The translations under genes and the position numbers were made by a program. Shown piece by piece: positions 3,031-27,049 of a stretch of 55,216 nucleotides of DNA. Source of the DNA: Deltaproteobacteria bacterium HGW-Deltaproteobacteria-19 (GTDB taxonomy: Bacteria; Desulfobacterota; Syntrophia; Syntrophales; PHBD01); NCBI GenBank assembly GCA_002841865.1, contig PHBD01000020.1, positions 1-55,216 of the forward strand, in the 5' to 3' direction. Under the pieces are notes generated by a model. It was not told where the DNA came from. It did no database searches and saw only the letters and a program-made list of their open reading frames with translations. How positions within the stretch are numbered: the first letter of the stretch is position 1; the number at the start of each line of letters is the position of its first letter.

Positions 3031-3813
3031 CTACTGCTTGATGTTGTTGGCGACCTGCAGCATGTCGTCCGCCGTCTGGATGGCCTTGGAGTTGATCTCG
3101 TAGGCCCGCTGCCCGGCGATCATCTTCACCATCTCGTCGATGACGTTGACGTTCGACATTTCCAGGTACTGCTGCGTGATCGTTCCGCACCCCTCTTCTC
3201 CGGGATTGGTGACGATGGCGTCCCCCGAGCTGTTGGACGTGGTGAAGAGGTTGCGGCCCATGGCGGTGAGCCCCGCGGGATTGATGAACCGGGCGAGTTC
3301 GATCCGCCCTCCCGTCGTCGATGCCCCCGTGCTGTCCGAATAGGACCATGTCCCGCCGCTGTCGATGGTGAAACTGACGGCGGTCGACGGCACCTGGACG
3401 TTCGGAATAAGCCTCAACCCTTCAGGATTGCAGAGGTAACCGTCCTTGTCGAGTTTAAAATTCCCGCCCCGGGTATAGACCGTGGTGCCGTTGTTATCGA
3501 GCTGGAAAAAGCCGCTCCCCTCGATGGCCCAGTCGAAGGAATTGCCCGTCTGCTGGTAGTCGCCCTGGCTGAAGTTCTTGGACACCGAGACAACCTTGAC
3601 GCCCAGCCCGACCTGGATGCCCGAGGGCAGCTGCACCCCCGCCGAGGTCTCCGATCCCGACTGGGACGACACCTGGTACATCAGGTCCTGGAAGTCGATG
3701 CGGGACTTCTTGAAACCGGTTGTGTTTATGTTGGCCAGATTGTTGGCGATTACATCCTGCTCCAGCTGCTGGGCCCGCATGCCGGTGGCGGCGATCCACA
3801 GGGAACGAATCAT
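3031..3813 (-). CDS. flgG: Flagellar distal rod protein FlgG
   Basis: A 260-residue axial rod protein. The N-terminus MIRSLWIAATGMRAQQ with DVIANNLANINTTGFK is the rod/hook N-terminal motif. The C-terminus has YLEMSNVNVIDEMVKMIAGQ followed by RAYEINSKAIQTADDML, the matching helix that packs against it. Length is that of FlgG (about 260), and the central segment QLPSGIQVGLGVKV is typical. A GGAG sequence precedes the ATG. It is coupled to flgF upstream (17-base gap) and flgA downstream (8-base gap). Confidence 0.95.
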   Translation of the reverse strand: MIRSLWIAATGMRAQQLEQDVIANNLANINTTGFKKSRIDFQDLMYQVSSQSGSETSAGVQLPSGIQVGLGVKVVSVSKNFSQGDYQQTGNSFDWAIEGSGFFQLDNNGTTVYTRGGNFKLDKDGYLCNPEGLRLIPNVQVPSTAVSFTIDSGGTWSYSDSTGASTTGGRIELARFINPAGLTAMGRNLFTTSNSSGDAIVTNPGEEGCGTITQQYLEMSNVNVIDEMVKMIAGQRAYEINSKAIQTADDMLQVANNIKQ

Positions 3814-3830: not shown

Positions 3831-4571
3831 TTAGACCACTCTCCCGATCTGGGAAGTGGACTGCTTATCCTGGTCTGTCATCGTCCTGATGATTTTCTGA
3901 TAGGTTTCAAACGAGCGCTGCAGTTCGATCATGGCCACCATTTCCTTGATGGCGTTCACGTTGGACATTTCCAGGGTCTGCCCCTGGACCCGGGGATCCG
4001 TCATGACAGTCATCCCGGCGGTTCCCGGATCGATGTATTGATTGTCACCCTGTTTCTTGAGGTTCTGGGGCCGATCGAAGGTCACCACCTTCAGCTGGCC
4101 GACATTGGTGGATATCGTCCCGTCCCCACCGGGTTCGGTGACGGATATCGTCCCGTCCTGACCGATCTGGACATCATTGCCGTCAATCGTGATGGGCCCC
4201 GAGGTGCCGAGAACCCGCTCTCCCGTAGAAGTGACCAGTTCGCTGTTCTTGTTGATATGGAGACTGCCTCCCCGTATATAGGCCGTCCCCTGCTTGGTCT
4301 CGACCGCCAGGAATCCGTCCCCCTCGATGGCGACATCGAGCGCGCCGCCGGTTCTCTGGAGCGTTCCGGGAGAGAAATCGGTCAGCCCGTACGGAGCATA
4401 TTCCAATCCCGGGTCCGTCGTCCCGGAGACCGGGTCCGACTGGAGCGCGTAACTCAGGTGAATCGCCTTGAATCCCGGTGTGTTGGCGTGGGCGATGTTC
4501 TGGGTGACCATCTCGAGCTGCTGGATGCTGCGGGTTGCCGCCGCGGCGATATCACGGACATCGAGTGCCAT
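3831..4571 (-). CDS. flgF: Flagellar proximal rod protein FlgF
   Basis: A 246-residue rod protein and the first gene of its operon. The N-terminus is an unusual variant (RSIQQLEMVTQNIAHANTPG) of the axial-protein motif. The C-terminus keeps LEMSNVNAIKEMVAMIELQ and RSFETYQKIIRTMTDQD. Compared with FlgG the N-terminal motif is more divergent, and the central segment YAPYGLTDFSPGTLQRTG resembles FlgF. Location immediately before flgG supports FlgF. A GAGGA ribosome site lies 9 bases before the ATG, and a sigma-54-type promoter lies about 40 bases upstream. Confidence 0.88.
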   Translation of the reverse strand: MALDVRDIAAAATRSIQQLEMVTQNIAHANTPGFKAIHLSYALQSDPVSGTTDPGLEYAPYGLTDFSPGTLQRTGGALDVAIEGDGFLAVETKQGTAYIRGGSLHINKNSELVTSTGERVLGTSGPITIDGNDVQIGQDGTISVTEPGGDGTISTNVGQLKVVTFDRPQNLKKQGDNQYIDPGTAGMTVMTDPRVQGQTLEMSNVNAIKEMVAMIELQRSFETYQKIIRTMTDQDKQSTSQIGRVV

Positions 4572-4662: not shown

Positions 4663-4962
4663 CTACCGCAATTCGCGCTTGCGCTCGTCCAGGGAGTACA
4701 CGAAGGCCAGGATCTCCGCGATGGCCCGGTAGAGTTCGACGGGGATTTCCTGATCGACGTCCAGGCGGTAGAGGAACTCGACCAGGGCGGAGTCCTCCTT
4801 CACCGGGACCCCGTGAAGGCGCGCCTTTTCGATGATCCGGCTTGCCACCTCGCCGCGCCCCTTTGCGGTTATCCGGGGCGCCGAATCCGGCTTCCCGTCG
4901 TATTTCAGCGCCGCCGCAAGGGGGGTCTTTTCCTTCTTATGGCCGGGGCGTTCCTGATTCAT
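4663..4962 (-). CDS. Stand-alone FlhB C-terminal-domain protein (FhlB/YlqH type)
   Basis: A 99-residue soluble protein matching only the C-terminal cytoplasmic part of FlhB downstream of the autocleavage site. Residues KGRGEVASRI and VPVELYRAIAEILAFVYSLD align closely with KGRGFLAATI and IPENLYRAVAEILAFVYRLR in the full FlhB at 15375-16445. No transmembrane segments and no NPTH motif are present. Such proteins (FhlB) can substitute for part of the FlhB export-switch domain; a role in substrate switching here is inference, strengthened by the FliK-like gene directly upstream. The ATG at 4962 has AAGGA five bases before it; a TTG at 4998 is a weaker alternative. Confidence 0.85.
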   Translation of the reverse strand: MNQERPGHKKEKTPLAAALKYDGKPDSAPRITAKGRGEVASRIIEKARLHGVPVKEDSALVEFLYRLDVDQEIPVELYRAIAEILAFVYSLDERKRELR

Positions 4963-5025
4963 AGGATCCTTCCGCGGCGGTTGCCCGCCCGTTTCCAAAA
5001 CCGGCCCGTTGCCGCTCGCAGGAGG

Positions 5026-6186
5026 TCAGGCGTAAACATTGACCGCGTCCCTCTGGAAAAGAGGCAGGGACAGTTTTTTTTCCTGGATGGTCCGGTTGAT
5101 GTCGTGGTCGGCCAGGCAGACAATCCCGGCCTCGGGGAAACCGGCGGCCGCCAGGCGTTCCTTGAGTTCGTCCATGCCGGACTGAAGAAACTGCCTGACC
5201 TCTTCCGTTCCGCAGCGCAGAGCTCCGCTCATTCGCCCCCCGGACAGCCGGGCATCCACCAGGATGTCCCCGAGCGCTTCCATGTTGAGGCAAAGGACCA
5301 CCCGAAAGGACTCCTCCGCTGAACCGTCTTCCCCGTCCTGCCCCCCCTCGGGATAGATGAACAGGTCCTGGACCCGGATCCCGCCGGGGAACGCTGCGGG
5401 CACCTGGACTACAAACGGTCCCCCTTCCCGGCGCGACAAAATATTGACATCCCGGTGGACGTCCAGGGTCTCCAGGGCCGACCGGGCAGTAGATGCCGCC
5501 TGCTCCAGGTCTTTCCGGCCGGGAGCACCTGCATCCATCGTCGCCAGTTCCCGCTCGGCCGCCTCGGCCAGACGGAGGAGCGATTCCCTGAGCGTGCCCG
5601 GAGAGGTTTTCACCGGGGCGTTTCCCTCGGCCAAACGGGCGTCGGGATTCCTGTCACCGTCGGCAGGCGCCGCCTGTTTCGCCGGGCTTCCGTCAACGCC
5701 GTCCGAGGCCTGCTTCCCGGAGCCGGAGAAGATCAGCGATGACAGGAGACCCTGCAGGCTGTTCCGCTCGGCCGCCACCAGGGGGAAACGATCTGCCGGG
5801 AGGGTTTCCGCCATCGACTCGACCAGGGCGGACAACTGCCGGAACATGTCACCCAGGAGACCGGGCCTGCTGCGGAAGATGCTGAGAGATTCCGGGAGCC
5901 GACCCTGTACGCCCGGCTGGTCGTCCGCCAGAACCTGGAGGACGATCTGCGGGGAGTTCCGGACGACCCGGGCGGCGAACCGCGCACCCTCGCCCAGGGG
6001 TTGCTTCGTCTCCGCCAGAACCCGGGTGTCTCCAAGATCCAGAAGGAGGAGCCCCCCCTCGCGGACTTCAAGAACCATCGCTTCCACGCGCTCGCCGACG
6101 GAGAGCGGGGGCAGGCTGCCCGCCCGCGTTCGATTCGTCGGAGAAAGAGGATGCGTTGAGGGATCGGAAAGGGATATGAGTTTCAT
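5026..6186 (-). CDS. Second FliK-like hook-length / export-switch protein
   Basis: A 386-residue, mostly hydrophilic protein. The C-terminal 130 residues resemble the FliK hook-length domain: a beta-rich stretch (FVVQVPAAFPGGIRVQDLFI), SFRVVLCLNMEALGDILVDA, then a helix (EEVRQFLQSGMDELKERLAA) and GFPEAGIVCL. The N-terminal part (VGERVEAMVLEVREGGLLLL) may be a small beta domain. It is distinct from the larger FliK at 25050-26951 in the hook operon. It lies 63 bases upstream of the detached FlhB C-terminal domain, the normal partner of FliK, so the two may act as a pair. Assignment rests on the C-terminal pattern and context, not on close similarity. Confidence 0.65.
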   Translation of the reverse strand: MKLISLSDPSTHPLSPTNRTRAGSLPPLSVGERVEAMVLEVREGGLLLLDLGDTRVLAETKQPLGEGARFAARVVRNSPQIVLQVLADDQPGVQGRLPESLSIFRSRPGLLGDMFRQLSALVESMAETLPADRFPLVAAERNSLQGLLSSLIFSGSGKQASDGVDGSPAKQAAPADGDRNPDARLAEGNAPVKTSPGTLRESLLRLAEAAERELATMDAGAPGRKDLEQAASTARSALETLDVHRDVNILSRREGGPFVVQVPAAFPGGIRVQDLFIYPEGGQDGEDGSAEESFRVVLCLNMEALGDILVDARLSGGRMSGALRCGTEEVRQFLQSGMDELKERLAAAGFPEAGIVCLADHDINRTIQEKKLSLPLFQRDAVNVYA

Positions 6187-6216: not shown

Positions 6217-6681
6217 TTACCTCTTCCCGGTCAGATTCAGGATGAGGTTGACTTCCCCGTCCGGGATGCCGGTGTGCCTTGCGATCTCACGCTCCGAGAG
6301 ACCGCGGGCGGCCAGGGCCAGAACCTGTGCGGCCCTTGGATCCCCCGCCGGGGGAGGGTCGGCCTCCGGTTCCTTCCGTTCCGGGGCTTCCGGGCACAGG
6401 GTCAGGAGCTCGCGGATTCTTTTTTCCCGCTCATCCAGGGCACGGGCCAGCTCCTTGAGCGTATCCCGGCTCTCCTGGACGGCCGTCAAAAAATGGTCGG
6501 TCGCGCTGCGGGAATCCTCGACGAGCTGCCGAAGGTCCTGCATCTCTTTTTCCCCGGGGAGAACGTTTTTCCGGCTCATGGCCCTGCGGACCTGCCAGAG
6601 GAGGAAAAGAACGAGCAGCGCAAGGGCAACATCCATGCCAAGCTGCAGCAGCAGAAACTCCCGTGTCGTCATCGCAAGCAT
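6217..6681 (-). CDS. Membrane-anchored DUF2802-like flagellar operon protein
   Basis: A 154-residue protein with one N-terminal membrane segment (about residues 13-32, VALALLVLFLLWQVRRAM), a central coiled coil rich in Glu, Arg and Leu, and a C-terminal helix-turn-helix-like motif, LALAARGLSEREIARHTG followed by PDGEVNLILNL. That C-terminal motif is characteristic of the DUF2802 family, which is found in flagellar operons and has no settled function. I chose the ATG at 6681 because GGGAG lies 5 bases before it; an upstream ATG at 6693 is possible. A structural or regulatory role at the membrane is inference from topology. Confidence 0.7.
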   Translation of the reverse strand: MLAMTTREFLLLQLGMDVALALLVLFLLWQVRRAMSRKNVLPGEKEMQDLRQLVEDSRSATDHFLTAVQESRDTLKELARALDEREKRIRELLTLCPEAPERKEPEADPPPAGDPRAAQVLALAARGLSEREIARHTGIPDGEVNLILNLTGKR

Positions 6682-6701
6682 GTCGGCTCCCATCCGTTCC
6701 G

Positions 6702-7015: not shown

Positions 7016-7780
7016 TCAGCAGGCAGGAAACGATATCCAGATTTCCTGACCTTGTTCCACGGAAACGGCCGCCCCGTAATGTTTCCAGAGAAGCAGGGAC
7101 AGACAGAGTGCACAATGGGGACGATCCTGGATCCGCGGCTGCCGGCCCTCATCCAGCACTCCCTCCATATCCTCCCGCTCCTCGTCCGTCAACGGTGTTC
7201 CGGTATGGCGGATGCCGAGAAGAACCCGATCGTTCTCTTTCCCGATCGTCACGTTAAGCTCATGATCTCCCTGGGATCCCATGCGAACCGTCGCATGACG
7301 GAGCAACGCCCAGAGGGCCATGGCGAAATGGGCCTGGACGCCCCGCACGGGCGGAACCCCGTCGGAAAGGTTCAGGACCTTGCGGACCCGGTGCTTGAAG
7401 TCCAGGTAATGATCCGCAAAGCGAACTTCCCGACGCACCAGGCTCGGAAGATCAAACCGATCCTCCTTCTTGTGGGTGAGGATCCCGAACCGGGAGGCGA
7501 CATCCTGGAAGACATCGGCAAATCGCTCCGATTCAGTGTTCAACAACCGGACATCGGAATGAATCTTCAACCAGTCCTCCGCCAGCGTACCCGGCATCTG
7601 AACCGCGTTTTTCTCCATGGCCGCCTGCAGGTTCTCCAGGCGCCGTTCGAGAATCTTCGCCCTGCCCATGATCCCGTTCAGCGGGTTGGCAAAGTTGTGG
7701 AGAAGCCCCGGCACGAAAGCATACAGCATGGTTCCTGAAAAGGCCTCTTCCAAGGCACGCTCAAGCTCTTGTATTTCCAT
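7016..7780 (-). CDS. Degenerate histidine kinase (pseudokinase) of the flagellar operon
   Basis: A 254-residue soluble protein with a recognisable H-box, VPGLLHNFANPLNGIMGRAK, so His28 is a candidate phospho-acceptor. The ATP-binding half is damaged: where kinases have an N-box with Asn this protein has ALWALLRHATVRMG, and the G1 box (normally DxGxG) reads IRHTGTPL. No sensory or membrane segment is present. It overlaps the end of the intact kinase gene at 7761-8582 by 20 bases, so the two are probably co-translated. It may act as a phosphotransfer or regulatory partner of that kinase, which is inference. AGGA precedes the ATG by 6 bases. Confidence 0.75.
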   Translation of the reverse strand: MEIQELERALEEAFSGTMLYAFVPGLLHNFANPLNGIMGRAKILERRLENLQAAMEKNAVQMPGTLAEDWLKIHSDVRLLNTESERFADVFQDVASRFGILTHKKEDRFDLPSLVRREVRFADHYLDFKHRVRKVLNLSDGVPPVRGVQAHFAMALWALLRHATVRMGSQGDHELNVTIGKENDRVLLGIRHTGTPLTDEEREDMEGVLDEGRQPRIQDRPHCALCLSLLLWKHYGAAVSVEQGQEIWISFPAC

Positions 7781-8582
7781 GGTTATTCCTCATCAGATTC
7801 TCTTCCGGTCTATCCAGCAAACCGCTTCCGGAGGGTACAAGATCCGCCGGCAGCTCCACATGGACTACGGTCCCCCGCGCGGGCGCCCCTTCCGCCCAGA
7901 TCCTTCCCCCGTGAAGTTCACAGGCGAGACGGCAGAAGGCGAGCCCGATGCCGGATTCGCTCTTTCCGGTCCCGGGACCGGGAGCACAGCCGCTGCCGGG
8001 GCGGGGAGAACCCGTCACTTCATTGCCTGCCTTGCCGCCCGAAAAGGGACGAACCAGGGCCGCCTTGACCACCTCCGGCATCCCGGCGCCATTATCACAC
8101 ACGGAAATGCGGATCCGGCCCGTGGAGGCGTTCCATACCCGGATACCGATTCGCCCGCCCCGTTCTACCTGGGCGACGGCATTCAGCATCAGATTGCAAA
8201 GAACTCTTTCCAGCAGGGGCTCGTCCGCGACCAGCGTCACCGGGGCCTCCTCGATGTCGATCTCAAGGTGCACGTTTTTATCCCGGCACAGCACCACCCA
8301 CATTTTCTCCAGGCGATGGAAGAAGAGGCCGACACGGATAATGCACAGTTCGAGGGCAGGTCCATGCTCCCCCAGACGTGTGATCCGCAGGTACCCCTGG
8401 ATCATGAGCTGGAGATCCCGGCACCCCTTGAGCGCACTATGCAGGAGCTCCTCCTCCCGGGAGCGCAGGCGGCATCTTGAAAGCAGGTCCAGGTTCGCCA
8501 GGATAATCGTCAGAGGGTTTTTCATATCATGAACGATCATGCGTTGCCAATCGACGTGCAACAATCCCTTTGTGGATTCCAT
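7761..8582 (-). CDS. Soluble sensor histidine kinase in flagellar operon
   Basis: A 273-residue cytoplasmic histidine kinase without a visible input domain. It has all catalytic boxes: H-box RMIVHDMKNPLTIILANLDL with His18, N-box LERVLCNLMLNAVAQ, G1 box VCDNGAGMPE, and G2 region GKSESGIGLAFCRLACELHG. A Gly/Pro-rich insertion lies between G1 and G2. The start at 8582 is preceded by AAGG at 6 bases; an ATG at 8603 is an alternative. Its stop overlaps the start of the pseudokinase at 7016-7780, and the receiver-TPR protein at 9211-10461 is the nearest candidate substrate. Association with FlhF, FlhG and FliA suggests motility signalling. Confidence 0.85.
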   Translation of the reverse strand: MESTKGLLHVDWQRMIVHDMKNPLTIILANLDLLSRCRLRSREEELLHSALKGCRDLQLMIQGYLRITRLGEHGPALELCIIRVGLFFHRLEKMWVVLCRDKNVHLEIDIEEAPVTLVADEPLLERVLCNLMLNAVAQVERGGRIGIRVWNASTGRIRISVCDNGAGMPEVVKAALVRPFSGGKAGNEVTGSPRPGSGCAPGPGTGKSESGIGLAFCRLACELHGGRIWAEGAPARGTVVHVELPADLVPSGSGLLDRPEENLMRNNHGNTRA

Positions 8583-8627
8583 CTGCCGCCTTCCCTGTTC
8601 CATGCCCCGCCCCCAGCCGCTCCCCGC

Positions 8628-15374: not shown

Positions 15375-16445
15375 TTATGATGCGTTCTCGCGGAGCCTGT
15401 ATACGAATGCGAGGATCTCGGCGACGGCCCGGTACAGATTTTCGGGGATGATCCCGCTCACCTCAACCATCTTATACAATACTTGTGCCACCGGCTTGTT
15501 CTCGACCACCGGCACCCTGTGTCGCTCGGCAACCTGCCGGATGGTCGCTGCCAGGAACCCTCTCCCCTTGGCGACGACCGTCGGGGCGGCCATGCGCTCC
15601 GGGTCATACCGGATGGCCACGGCAAGGTGGGTCGGGTTCGTGATGACCACGTCGGCTTTCGGCACGGCGGCCATCATCCTTTTGCGGGCCATCTCCTGCT
15701 GGATTCTCCGGATCCGGCTCTTGATCAGGGGATCCCCCTCCGTCTCCTTGGTCTCATCCTTGATTTCCTGTCGGGACATGCGAAGGGTTCGTTCGAGCTC
15801 CCAACGCTGGTAGGCGTAATCGAGGACCGCCAGGAACGCCAGGATGATGCACGTCGTGCCGAGAATCCGGAATGAAACCCGCCCCATGAACACGAGGATT
15901 TCGGGCACGCTCCGATCCATCAGCGGGATCAGATGGGGCAGCTCCGACCGCACGGCCAGATACGCCACGAAACCGACGATGGCCAACTTCATGACGCTTT
16001 TCACCAGCTCCATGACAGACTGGAGGGAGAACAGGCGCTTGAACCCCTCAAGGGGGTTGATTTTGGACAGTTTCGGCGTCACGCTCTCCGCTGTGATCTG
16101 AAAACCCACCTGGAAGGTGTTGGAGGCCAGGCCGGCCAGGACGACGGTCAGGAAAAGAGGACCCAGGAGGATCAGCATATCCAGGACGGTCTGGGCGAAA
16201 AGCGCCGGCACCGTGTCCGTACTGAGCGTGACGGCGATGCTGCGGCGGAACGAAGAGCGCATCATGTTCATCATGCGTTCCATCGCTCCGGAGCTCTGAA
16301 AGTACAGGCAGATCAGGCAGGCCGACAGGACCGCCGCGGAGACCACTTCCCGGCTCCGGGCGACCTGTCCTTTTTTGCGCGCTTCTTCCCGCTTGCGCGG
16401 AGTTGCGCGTTCTGTTCTCTCCTGGTCGTCCCTGTTTCCCGGCAC
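15375..16445 (-). CDS. flhB: Flagellar export switch protein FlhB
   Basis: A 356-residue export-gate protein. The N-terminus is basic and hydrophilic (ERATPRKREEARKKGQVARS), followed by four membrane segments and a cytoplasmic domain. The autocleavage motif NPTH is at about residues 270-273 in VVITNPTHLAVAIRYDP; cleavage between Asn and Pro permits the hook-to-filament substrate switch triggered by FliK. The C-terminal segment is closely matched by the stand-alone protein at 4663-4962. The start is GTG at 16445 with AGGAGG 7 bases upstream. Confidence 0.97.
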   Translation of the reverse strand: MPGNRDDQERTERATPRKREEARKKGQVARSREVVSAAVLSACLICLYFQSSGAMERMMNMMRSSFRRSIAVTLSTDTVPALFAQTVLDMLILLGPLFLTVVLAGLASNTFQVGFQITAESVTPKLSKINPLEGFKRLFSLQSVMELVKSVMKLAIVGFVAYLAVRSELPHLIPLMDRSVPEILVFMGRVSFRILGTTCIILAFLAVLDYAYQRWELERTLRMSRQEIKDETKETEGDPLIKSRIRRIQQEMARKRMMAAVPKADVVITNPTHLAVAIRYDPERMAAPTVVAKGRGFLAATIRQVAERHRVPVVENKPVAQVLYKMVEVSGIIPENLYRAVAEILAFVYRLRENAS

Positions 16446-25049: not shown

Positions 25050-26951
25050 TCAGGCAAATACGCTGATCCCGTCCGTGGTTATCCGTCGCGGAGCCGTCCC
25101 CGCGGCGGGCTGCCGTGCCTCGGTGCCGGACTCTCCGTTCCGGCGGCCCGACCCCGATCCGTGGCTGTTTGACTCATTCATGTTCCTGCCGTCGTTGAGA
25201 CCGCCGTATCCCCCGGAAGGTCCGCCGTTCGACTGGAAATCCCGTCCCGATGTCTGCATGGAAAGCGACTCCACCCGCAGTCCCTGGTCGGAGAGCGCCG
25301 TCCGCAGCTCCGCCGCGTGTCCACGGAGGGTATGAAGCGACTCCTCCCGCTGGACGGACATCATGATCTCCACCGATTCCTTCCGGACCCTCACGTCCAT
25401 ATCGAGGTTCCCGAGATGCTCCGGGGAGAGAACAATGCGGACCCGGCCCCCGTCCGTTCCCGCCTTTTCGGCCGCCGTCGCCCAGGCATCCGAAGCCTGC
25501 TTCAGGACGGCGGATGGATCGCGAAGGGACTCCGAAGAGGTTTCATGGGACGGGAAGGGCGTTTTTGCGGCCGCCAGCGCTCCCTGCGCTTCACCACCGG
25601 AGTTTCCGGAAGCGGCTCTCTCGACGCCGGGCTGCGACGCCTGCTCGACGGTGTCGCGGAACGTTGTGGCATCTGCTGCGGCAGCCTGTTTCGCCTGAAT
25701 CTCCGTTGCGGGCTTGTTCTCCTGTCCTTTCGCCGCCACCCGCTCAGGGCCTGATTCCGTCCGGCGCACGTCGAAGGGTGCGGATGAGGAGATTTTTTTC
25801 GTTCGGATATCGACTTTCACTACGCCCGCACCTGCGGCTTCCTGGCCCGTATCCTGCCGGGCCTGCCCGGACTGCTTCCGGACTGCCGTGCCGGCCGCGG
25901 AGGTGGATAACGCCTGCCGGCCCGGATCGATGGCGGAGTTCCCGCCTTCCGGCGCACTGTCCGGCGTCCGGGAAAGGGAAGCGGTTGGTTGTTCCGTGTT
26001 ATTCGAAGACGTGCGGGCGGGCTGATTCTTTTGCCCGGCATCGGCGATGATTTCCCCGTTCACGGGAACCGTGTTCTTTTCGCCGGCCGCGGACTTGAGA
26101 ATTTCTGCCGTTCCCTCGCTTTCAGCGGGGCTTGCCACCCGGGCTGAAGGGGAGTTCGGGGCCGATGTGTTTTTCACTGTTTCGGAATCGGCGGCCGGGG
26201 CGTTCCCGGTGCTCTGGCGGCTGACGGGGCGATCGTTCGGCCGGGAAAGCGAATCGGCGGAAGAGGAATCCGTCTCTGTGCGCATCGCGTTTGCCTGTTC
26301 CAGGGCATCCATCCCCGCGCCTTCCCCGTCAATGCCGTAAGATGAACCGGTGTGCCGGGTGTCCGCGTTTGTGATCGGTTGTTCCGTTATGCTGCCTGTT
26401 TCCAATGTATCGCCCAGGGAAGGCATCCCTTCGACGGCCGGCGGAGCAGGAAAAATTTTCCCGGTAGCATCCGCACCAGAAGCGGCCGGAGCATTTACGA
26501 GTTCAACCGACCCTTTCATTGACGTATCGATTCCTGAAGCGGCCAGGATTTCGACCTGTTCGACGGAAACCGGCGCGGGAGGCAGATCGGGCGGTACAAG
26601 GGGAAGGGGAAGAGAAAGACCCGCCGGCAGGCCGGAATCGGTGCTTTCCGCGCCGGAGGCCGTCCCGGTGTTTTCAATTCTTTCGGGCTCCCGTGGGTCG
26701 GCATATCCCGGGCCGGTCACAACGGCCGGATTTTCTCCGGTGGCCGCCTTCTGCGGTTCCGCCGCCTGCTCGGCGAGGATCTGGGAAAACACAGGTTCCC
26801 CGGAGGTAACCGGACGCGAAGCCTGATTCATTCCGCTCGCAGAAAAGCCGTCCGGTGATTTCGCGGGGGTGCCCACCGGCGCGGAACCCTCTCTGAAGAG
26901 GGGAATCTCGCTGATCGGGGGTGGCATCATTTGTATTGCTGAAGGAGTCAT
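25050..26951 (-). CDS. fliK: Flagellar hook-length control protein FliK
   Basis: A 633-residue secreted molecular ruler. The first 480 residues are low-complexity, rich in Ala, Ser, Pro, Gly and Glu, as in other FliK proteins. The conserved C-terminal hook domain contains RVRIVLSPEHLGNLDMDVRV, then RKESVEIMMSVQREESLHTL and HAAELRTALSDQGLRVESLS. A Ser/Gly/Asn-rich tail follows. The frame is open upstream to 27008, but the sigma-54 promoter at 26983-26998 lies inside that extension and its predicted transcript starts near 26972, so ATG 26951 is the only reasonable start. Confidence 0.92.
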   Translation of the reverse strand: MTPSAIQMMPPPISEIPLFREGSAPVGTPAKSPDGFSASGMNQASRPVTSGEPVFSQILAEQAAEPQKAATGENPAVVTGPGYADPREPERIENTGTASGAESTDSGLPAGLSLPLPLVPPDLPPAPVSVEQVEILAASGIDTSMKGSVELVNAPAASGADATGKIFPAPPAVEGMPSLGDTLETGSITEQPITNADTRHTGSSYGIDGEGAGMDALEQANAMRTETDSSSADSLSRPNDRPVSRQSTGNAPAADSETVKNTSAPNSPSARVASPAESEGTAEILKSAAGEKNTVPVNGEIIADAGQKNQPARTSSNNTEQPTASLSRTPDSAPEGGNSAIDPGRQALSTSAAGTAVRKQSGQARQDTGQEAAGAGVVKVDIRTKKISSSAPFDVRRTESGPERVAAKGQENKPATEIQAKQAAAADATTFRDTVEQASQPGVERAASGNSGGEAQGALAAAKTPFPSHETSSESLRDPSAVLKQASDAWATAAEKAGTDGGRVRIVLSPEHLGNLDMDVRVRKESVEIMMSVQREESLHTLRGHAAELRTALSDQGLRVESLSMQTSGRDFQSNGGPSGGYGGLNDGRNMNESNSHGSGSGRRNGESGTEARQPAAGTAPRRITTDGISVFA

Positions 26952-26982
26952 CGTTCCATTTTTTCCTTTGCCAAGACGCATT

Positions 26983-26998
26983 TGCAACTGCCGTGCCA
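26983..26998 (-). promoter_or_regulatory. Sigma-54 promoter of fliK-flgD-flgE
   Basis: The minus strand reads TGGCACGGCAGTTGCA, an exact match to the consensus TGGCACG-N4-TTGCA. The predicted transcript start is near 26972, 21 bases before the fliK ATG. This is the best sigma-54 promoter in the window. Confidence 0.93.
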
Positions 26999-27049
26999 GA
27001 CCCTGCACTCTTTATTGTTCTGCAAATACAGCATGTTGCAATTAGCGAA

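Follow-up and report, generated by a model that had tools for sequence, protein, structure and literature searches.

Gene content of the locus

The stretch of DNA analysed here, hereafter the window, comprises 55,216 nucleotides of contig PHBD01000020.1 from Deltaproteobacteria bacterium HGW-Deltaproteobacteria-19 (phylum Desulfobacterota, order Syntrophales). It carries two neighbouring genes, one encoding a second FliK-type protein (hereafter FliK2) and the other a free C-terminal domain of FlhB (hereafter FlhX), together with a canonical FliK (hereafter FliK1) and a canonical FlhB elsewhere in the window (Table 1). A preliminary description made from the sequence had already noted the adjoining FliK-like protein and stand-alone FlhB domain, as well as the full FliK and the full FlhB, and our profile searches bear out all four assignments; the PF01312 and PF02120 matches of these proteins are far beyond chance. 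Across the whole genome, no FlhB-type or FliK-type genes other than these, two of each, scored above cut-off.

The pair is followed by flgF, flgG, flgA, flgH and flgI, and is preceded by fliA and flhA. Judged from relatives, the ATG at 4962 is a likelier start of FlhX than the first possible start, the TTG at 4998. Rfam gave zero matches within the window, and promoter- or terminator-like sites near the pair were no more numerous than in shuffled sequence. The flagellar cluster also contains an adjacent pair of histidine-kinase-like genes (7016–8603), the first of which (7016–7780) has a weak HisKA match (E 0.0047).

Table 1. Positions of the FliK2–FlhX pair, its predicted parts and related flagellar genes in the window
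Feature	Position	Strand	Length or evidence
FlhX, free FlhB C-terminal domain	4663..4962	-	99 aa from ATG 4962; PF01312, C-domain only
FlhX, longest ORF	4663..4998	-	111 aa from first start, TTG 4998
FliK2, second FliK-type protein	5026..6186	-	386 aa; PF02120 44.2 bits
OB/S1-like N-domain (predicted), FliK2 residues 26–88	5923..6111	-	AlphaFold2 models, fold matches
Helical region with disordered loop (158–194), FliK2 residues 91–253	5428..5916	-	AlphaFold2 model
Switch (T3S4/SS) domain, FliK2 residues 257–360	5107..5418	-	PF02120, PscP SS fold match
FliK-type C-terminal tail VNVYA, FliK2 last five residues	5029..5043	-	Tail pattern
DUF6115-like HTH protein, upstream of FliK2	6217..6693	-	PF19610 31.5 bits
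flgF (rod), downstream of FlhX	3831..4571	-	FlgEFG subfamily above cut-off; NCBIfam FlgF models below theirs
flgG (distal rod)	3031..3813	-	TIGR02488 332.7 bits
Canonical FlhB with NPTH	15375..16445	-	TIGR00328 416.5 bits; PF01312 441.8 bits, full profile
Canonical FliK1, upstream of flgD-flgE	25050..27008	-	PF02120 56.7 bits; tail ISVFA

FlhX lacks the membrane domain and the self-cleavage site of FlhB

FlhX matched PF01312 with 75.9 bits (cut-off 24.4) over profile positions 260–335 of 335, that is, over the last quarter only. It does not qualify as a full FlhB (TIGR00328), as the N-terminal membrane domain is absent and only the C-domain of 99–111 residues is present. In an alignment of C-domains, the NPxH self-cleavage site was found in 37 of 38 FlhB sequences, a set that includes two repeated genomes, and in none of 116 FlhX sequences. 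The preliminary description had suggested that the pair might provide an additional export switch; because FlhX has neither the membrane domain nor the self-cleavage site, it cannot on its own constitute a second FlhB-type switch.

The residues A286, P287, A341 and L344 of Salmonella FlhB, which we take, numbering included, to form the substrate pocket, are largely retained in the 116 FlhX sequences (112, 115, 112 and 98 sequences, respectively, with M, F, I or Y as the other residues at position 344). Their counterparts A28, P29, A82 and L85 are invariant in 21 FlhX sequences of the order. A hydrophobic pocket on the FlhB C-domain is reported to dock the early subunits, in a paper whose main text does not give these residue numbers (PMC8983047).

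A further feature separates the two families: all 116 FlhX sequences have 15 residues between positions 318 and 333, as against 16 in 33 and 15 in 5 of the 38 FlhB sequences. All FlhX formed one clade in two trees, with node supports of 0.77 (16 other sequences) and 0.47 (111 distinct FlhX and 37 others); the FlhX of the window thus appears to group with those of other phyla and away from FlhB, at weak node support. We considered whether FlhX is a recent duplicate or a broken-off piece of the FlhB of its own genome, and rejected this reading because the FlhX of several phyla group together; the absence of NPxH and the 15-residue spacing agree with this.

Some full-length FlhB proteins carry unusual self-cleavage motifs in place of NPTH, namely NPEH, NPDH, NPLH, NPVH or NPTR (L033/L042, L178, L041, L048, L183, L078 and L075; numbers with L and G denote our loci and genomes). 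In the Kurthia genome of L067 (L187/L191), the FlhB gene lies in two frames with stops, reflecting either a frameshift or an assembly error.

FliK2 has a FliK-type switch domain and tail and does not look like a hook ruler

FliK2 matched PF02120 (Flg_hook) with 44.2 bits (cut-off 29.8) at residues 291–357. An AlphaFold2 model built with 37 sequences (pLDDT 82.7, pTM 0.72) predicts an N-terminal barrel, then helices, then a switch domain rich in beta structure, and finally the tail. The best Foldseek match of the modelled switch domain was the SS domain of PscP (PDB 5cuk; probability 1.00, E 0.024), on which FliK2 residues 273–360 could be superposed with a VIA Z of 6.0 and an rmsd of 2.9 over 77 aligned residues. 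Modelled alone, the N-domain was an OB barrel (pLDDT 74), and its fold matches were to IF1, S1, RuvA and RPA-type proteins, all with Z under 8; an OB/S1 fold is likely from these models, if not proven. A sequence search of the PDB gave only chance-level matches for FliK2 (E 0.067 and 0.29) and none for FliK1.

The last five residues followed the pattern [VILM][DNS][VILMFYRS]x[VIA] in 73 of 86 non-identical FliK2 sequences, compared with 7 of 797 control frames; the FliK2 count excludes identical C-termini and any frame whose start is no more than 5 bases from the end of its contig. FliK1 proteins have a similar tail, a slightly stricter pattern being met in 19 of 20 genomes.

Upstream of the switch domain, FliK2 and FliK1 differ. 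The open frames of FliK1 are longer (413–995 residues in 20 genomes) than those of FliK2 in the order (232–391 residues, of which the shortest is truncated where its contig stops). The hydrophobic fraction of this upstream part is 0.27 in FliK2 and 0.18 in FliK1 of the window, and the means are 0.30 for 84 FliK2 and 0.22 for 20 FliK1 sequences, the latter taken from loci with limited flanks and with the N-terminus cut in some genomes. FliK2 is predicted to be mostly folded, without a long disordered N-terminal region, and does not resemble a hook ruler in these models. Since it also lacks a long stretch of low hydrophobicity like that of FliK1, a second control of hook length is unlikely. N-terminal hydrophobicity, used as a test for an export signal, was about equal in FliK2 (44/64) and controls (233/428).

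The gene pair is conserved within the order and across phyla

We examined the conservation of the pair at two levels. Among 41 genomes of the order, 24 had a match in the FlhX search at E<=0.001; 23 of these have FlhX, 22 a full FlhB and 21 both, and the three that have only one of the two are drafts of 75–94% completeness. In 22 of the 23 loci the gene immediately upstream of FlhX is FliK2, the exception (L017) beginning at a contig end with a 228-aa partial frame in the place of FliK2. flgF lies downstream of FlhX in 22 loci as well (L023 runs off its contig), and a DUF6115-like HTH gene precedes FliK2 in 20. In 20 genomes of the order, chosen for having FlhX, PF02120 detected a strong canonical FliK in every case. 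In 19 of them it also picked up another FliK, with a weaker match, at the locus of FlhX; the missing one (G015) was found by phmmer (L007).

The multi-phylum set consisted of the best 80 of 560 loci from a scan of genome contigs plus three added records, and shares at least two genomes (L036 and L042) with the order set. By the titles of their records, its members include Desulfobacterota, Nitrospirota, Nitrospinota, Bacillota, Aquificota, Campylobacterota, Planctomycetota and Gammaproteobacteria. An iterated FliK2 profile placed FliK2 directly upstream of FlhX in 74 of these 83 loci. As for the others, L060 has a short FliK2, L113 a FliK-like protein of 816 aa recognised by eye, and L040 no upstream sequence, and six (L070, L083, L106, L109, L111 and L114), five of them Selenomonad-type, have no recognised FliK2 beside FlhX. 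In L106 and L109, both Selenomonad-type, FlhX without an upstream FliK2 stands directly before a FlgE-like hook gene.

The commonest spacing, seen in 41 of 65 scored pairs, was a 4-base overlap of the two genes, which suggests that they are translationally coupled. No natural fusion of FliK2 and FlhX was present among the loci examined, which we counted against the reading of the two as a pair. The fusion candidates L019 (469 aa), L039 (520 aa), L146, L147, L149 and L151 proved to be over-extended or overlapping frames with a separate FliK2 gene, and L148 and the long frame of G060 (L150) turned out to be separate genes.

To guard against chance matches of the FliK2 profile, we trained a profile without Bacillota, and it recovered 38 of 42 Bacillota FliK2 candidates. 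Outside the FliK2 set, it matched three ORFs at E<1e-3, of which the one in L060 is a short FliK2, and we read those in L080 and L081 as N-terminal halves of split FliK2 genes. It missed L115, L117 and L113; the iterated profile found the first two, and L113 was recognised by eye only.

The pair is also kept outside flagellar clusters. In Pseudomonas aeruginosa its neighbours are ccmA and a GNAT gene, and the two proteins bear the annotations FliK and 'EscU/YscU/HrcU family'; in Bacillus velezensis it lies between the RNase HII gene and sucC. The B. velezensis FliK2 (NZ_CP083716.1; L115, 2298–4001) is annotated as 'glycosyl transferase'. It matched the iterated FliK2 profile with E 3e-29 and Pfam only through a sub-threshold, unrelated Tex55 match. 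The cross-phylum pair also points to a function in the flagellum for this Bacillus gene, which bears the 'glycosyl transferase' annotation in at least one public record. NZ_CP154629.1 (L117), a chromosome-like replicon of 2.63 Mb listed as a plasmid, carries FliK2–FlhX too.

FliK2 and FlhX co-occur

As a separate assessment of the pairing, we asked whether the two proteins occur in the same genomes. Among 118 genomes of the phylum, 73 have a full FlhB, 51 a free C-domain and 49 both. FlhX is thus missing from 24 of the 73 FlhB-bearing genomes and is therefore dispensable for having FlhB. The FliK2 alignment served to search all of these 24 genomes and 24 of the 51 that carry FlhX. The FliK2 N-domain was detected in all 24 of the genomes that have FlhX, compared with 2 of the 24 that lack it (G070 and G138; Fisher p 2e-11, ignoring genome relatedness); two of the 24 matches (G061 and G089) are weak, and that of G083 starts only at model position 74. 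In six of the genomes with FlhX (G044, G052, G061, G073, G080 and G089), FliK2 lies away from FlhX, which we counted against the pairing; in G052 and G080, of the same genus, FlhX still lies directly upstream of flgF-flgG. G070 (L162, 1739–2668) has a frame with a FliK2-like N-domain in the usual place behind the DUF6115-like gene; there is no FlhX after it, and no switch domain was detected in it. A coupled loss of FlhX and the switch domain is possible there.

The evolutionary distances of 19 genomes were compared as well. Here, and in the tail count above, the FliK1 sequences again came from loci with limited flanks, and some are cut at the N-terminus. The partial distance correlation of FliK2 with FlhX, given FlgF, was 0.52 (p 0.0005), and that of FliK1 with FlhX was 0.21 (p 0.04). 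FliK2 and FliK1 also correlated (0.39, p 0.001), a value that we counted against the pairing. The correlations are supportive of a FliK2–FlhX pair, not decisive.

A possible role for FliK2 and FlhX in export control

These results, taken together, indicate that FliK2 and FlhX are very probably partners, as the preliminary description had supposed: their genes are adjacent across phyla, the proteins co-occur, and they match the two halves of the known FliK/FlhB contact. The pair looks like a functional module. The idea of an additional switch special to this genome did not hold, as the pair is widespread and FlhX alone is an already known protein.

What the partners might do can be considered in the light of the canonical switch. 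A 2026 study of Salmonella reports that loss of the FlhB C-domain depends on FliK and stops early export, proposes this domain as the target of the last five FliK residues, and presents the specificity switch as an irreversible step brought about by removal of the domain (PMC13344023). The account that we prefer, tentatively and with somewhat less than even confidence, is that FliK2 and FlhX form a cognate soluble pair in which FlhX replaces the FlhB C-domain ejected by FliK, while FliK2 holds or releases FlhX. They would be a co-translated, probably cytosolic pair derived from the switch couple of FliK and the FlhB C-domain. FlhX would serve as a ready-made FlhB C-domain that requires no self-cleavage and retains the pocket at which the early subunits, those of rod and hook, presumably dock. 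Seated at the site of the FlhB C-domain, it could start, prolong or restore early export, one occasion being the ejection of the original domain by FliK. The switch domain and C-terminal tail of FliK2 would grip FlhX so as to retain, deliver or remove it, making FliK2 a dedicated partner of FlhX rather than a hook ruler. We propose that FlhX occupies this site under the control of FliK2 because FliK2 has the FliK-type tail and FlhX is the very domain in question; we infer that FliK2 binds FlhX, that FlhX docks at FlhB or FlhA, and which way FliK2 acts.

HP1575 of Helicobacter pylori reportedly serves as a 'spare part' after deletion of the FlhB C-domain (a result attributed to Wand et al., 2006). 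This fits the stand-in role, and by analogy the FlhX of the window would be a putative spare part that restores export after loss of that domain. A stronger version, which we regard as quite improbable, makes the pair a reset cassette: FlhX, held or released by FliK2, would re-dock and return the same basal body to early export. If so, rods or hooks could be continued or repaired without a new export machine.

The chief rival of FlhX as a stand-in is a rod-stage switch, the reading closest to the two-step control raised in the preliminary description, with FliK2–FlhX controlling rod export or the rod-to-hook transition and FliK1–FlhB the hook-to-filament transition. The gene order speaks for it: in 22 of 23 loci of the order the pair is directly upstream of flgF-flgG, FliK1 is upstream of flgD-flgE, and in the two genomes of one genus mentioned above FlhX stays before the rod genes with FliK2 elsewhere. 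Moreover, Actinobacteria without FlgF and FlgG are reported to be without FlhX as well (PMC10746217). We nevertheless judge a rod-stage switch unlikely, as the Bacillus and Pseudomonas pairs lie away from rod genes, FlhX precedes a FlgE-like gene in two Selenomonad-type genomes, and FliK2 is unlike a ruler. Somewhat less likely still is that the complex stays outside the export machine and acts by titration or regulation. FlhX would then be a decoy for FliK1 or for early subunits, and FliK2 might bind RNA through its OB/S1-like domain and so tie the export state to the translation of flagellar mRNA. A soluble FlhX with its presumed pocket, the OB/S1-like domain and the occurrence of some pairs outside flagellar clusters would accord with such a role, but the OB fold is a prediction that says nothing on RNA binding, and the reported 'spare part' activity of H. 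pylori HP1575 speaks for FlhX being able to function in export.

We give least credence to the reading that the two are redundant old paralogues, a relic or back-up that in most conditions has no role of its own. The many FlhB-bearing genomes of the phylum without FlhX are in line with it, and so is Salmonella, whose flagella are functional and for which, to our knowledge, no FlhX has been described. However, the presumed pocket and the tail are strongly conserved, and the pair stays together across phyla with nearly complete co-occurrence; relics would not be expected to retain these features. For FlhX as a stand-in held by FliK2, as for the alternatives, the cross-phylum pair turns the question of whether the switch is reset, delayed or staged into a directly testable one.

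Relation to known systems

The pair shares with the canonical FliK–FlhB switch a switch domain, a C-terminal tail and an FlhB C-domain with a presumed pocket. FliK2 differs from canonical FliK in having an OB/S1-like N-domain and no ruler-like region, and FlhX differs from canonical FlhB in lacking the membrane part and the self-cleavage site. The fold of FliK2 residues 273–360 is like that of the SS domain of PscP, an injectisome switch protein, the N-terminal part of which differs from that of FliK2. H. pylori HP1575, like FlhX, is a free FlhB C-domain beside a complete FlhB; no FliK partner is described with it in the literature that we consulted, whereas the FlhX of the window has a FliK-type partner in the adjacent gene. 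The nearest NCBIfam model to FlhX is TIGR00789 flhB_rel, to which the B. subtilis gene name YlqH is presumably attached, yet the score of FlhX (100 bits) is under its curated cut-off (117.35).

A table of B. subtilis ylqG mutations, in the part available, includes no functional test of ylqG (PMC11523185), and we found no functional study of the FliK2–FlhX pair among the open-access papers searched. The Vibrio 'FliK2' is, from the text available, the FliK of a second flagellar system and thus a different use of the name (PMC10956519); in the text examined of PMC6123715 the term does not appear. In Nitratiruptor, the same two genes, flhX-fliK, lie together outside the main flagellar cluster; the available text cites them as an exception in gene layout and proposes no function (PMC9321776). 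Already known, then, are FlhX, which is named in several papers, and flhX-fliK as a pair, mentioned once, in that same source. New here are the recognition that the two genes form a conserved module, an architecture of FliK2 that likely includes an OB fold, the common tail and the re-assignment of the Bacillus 'glycosyl transferase'.
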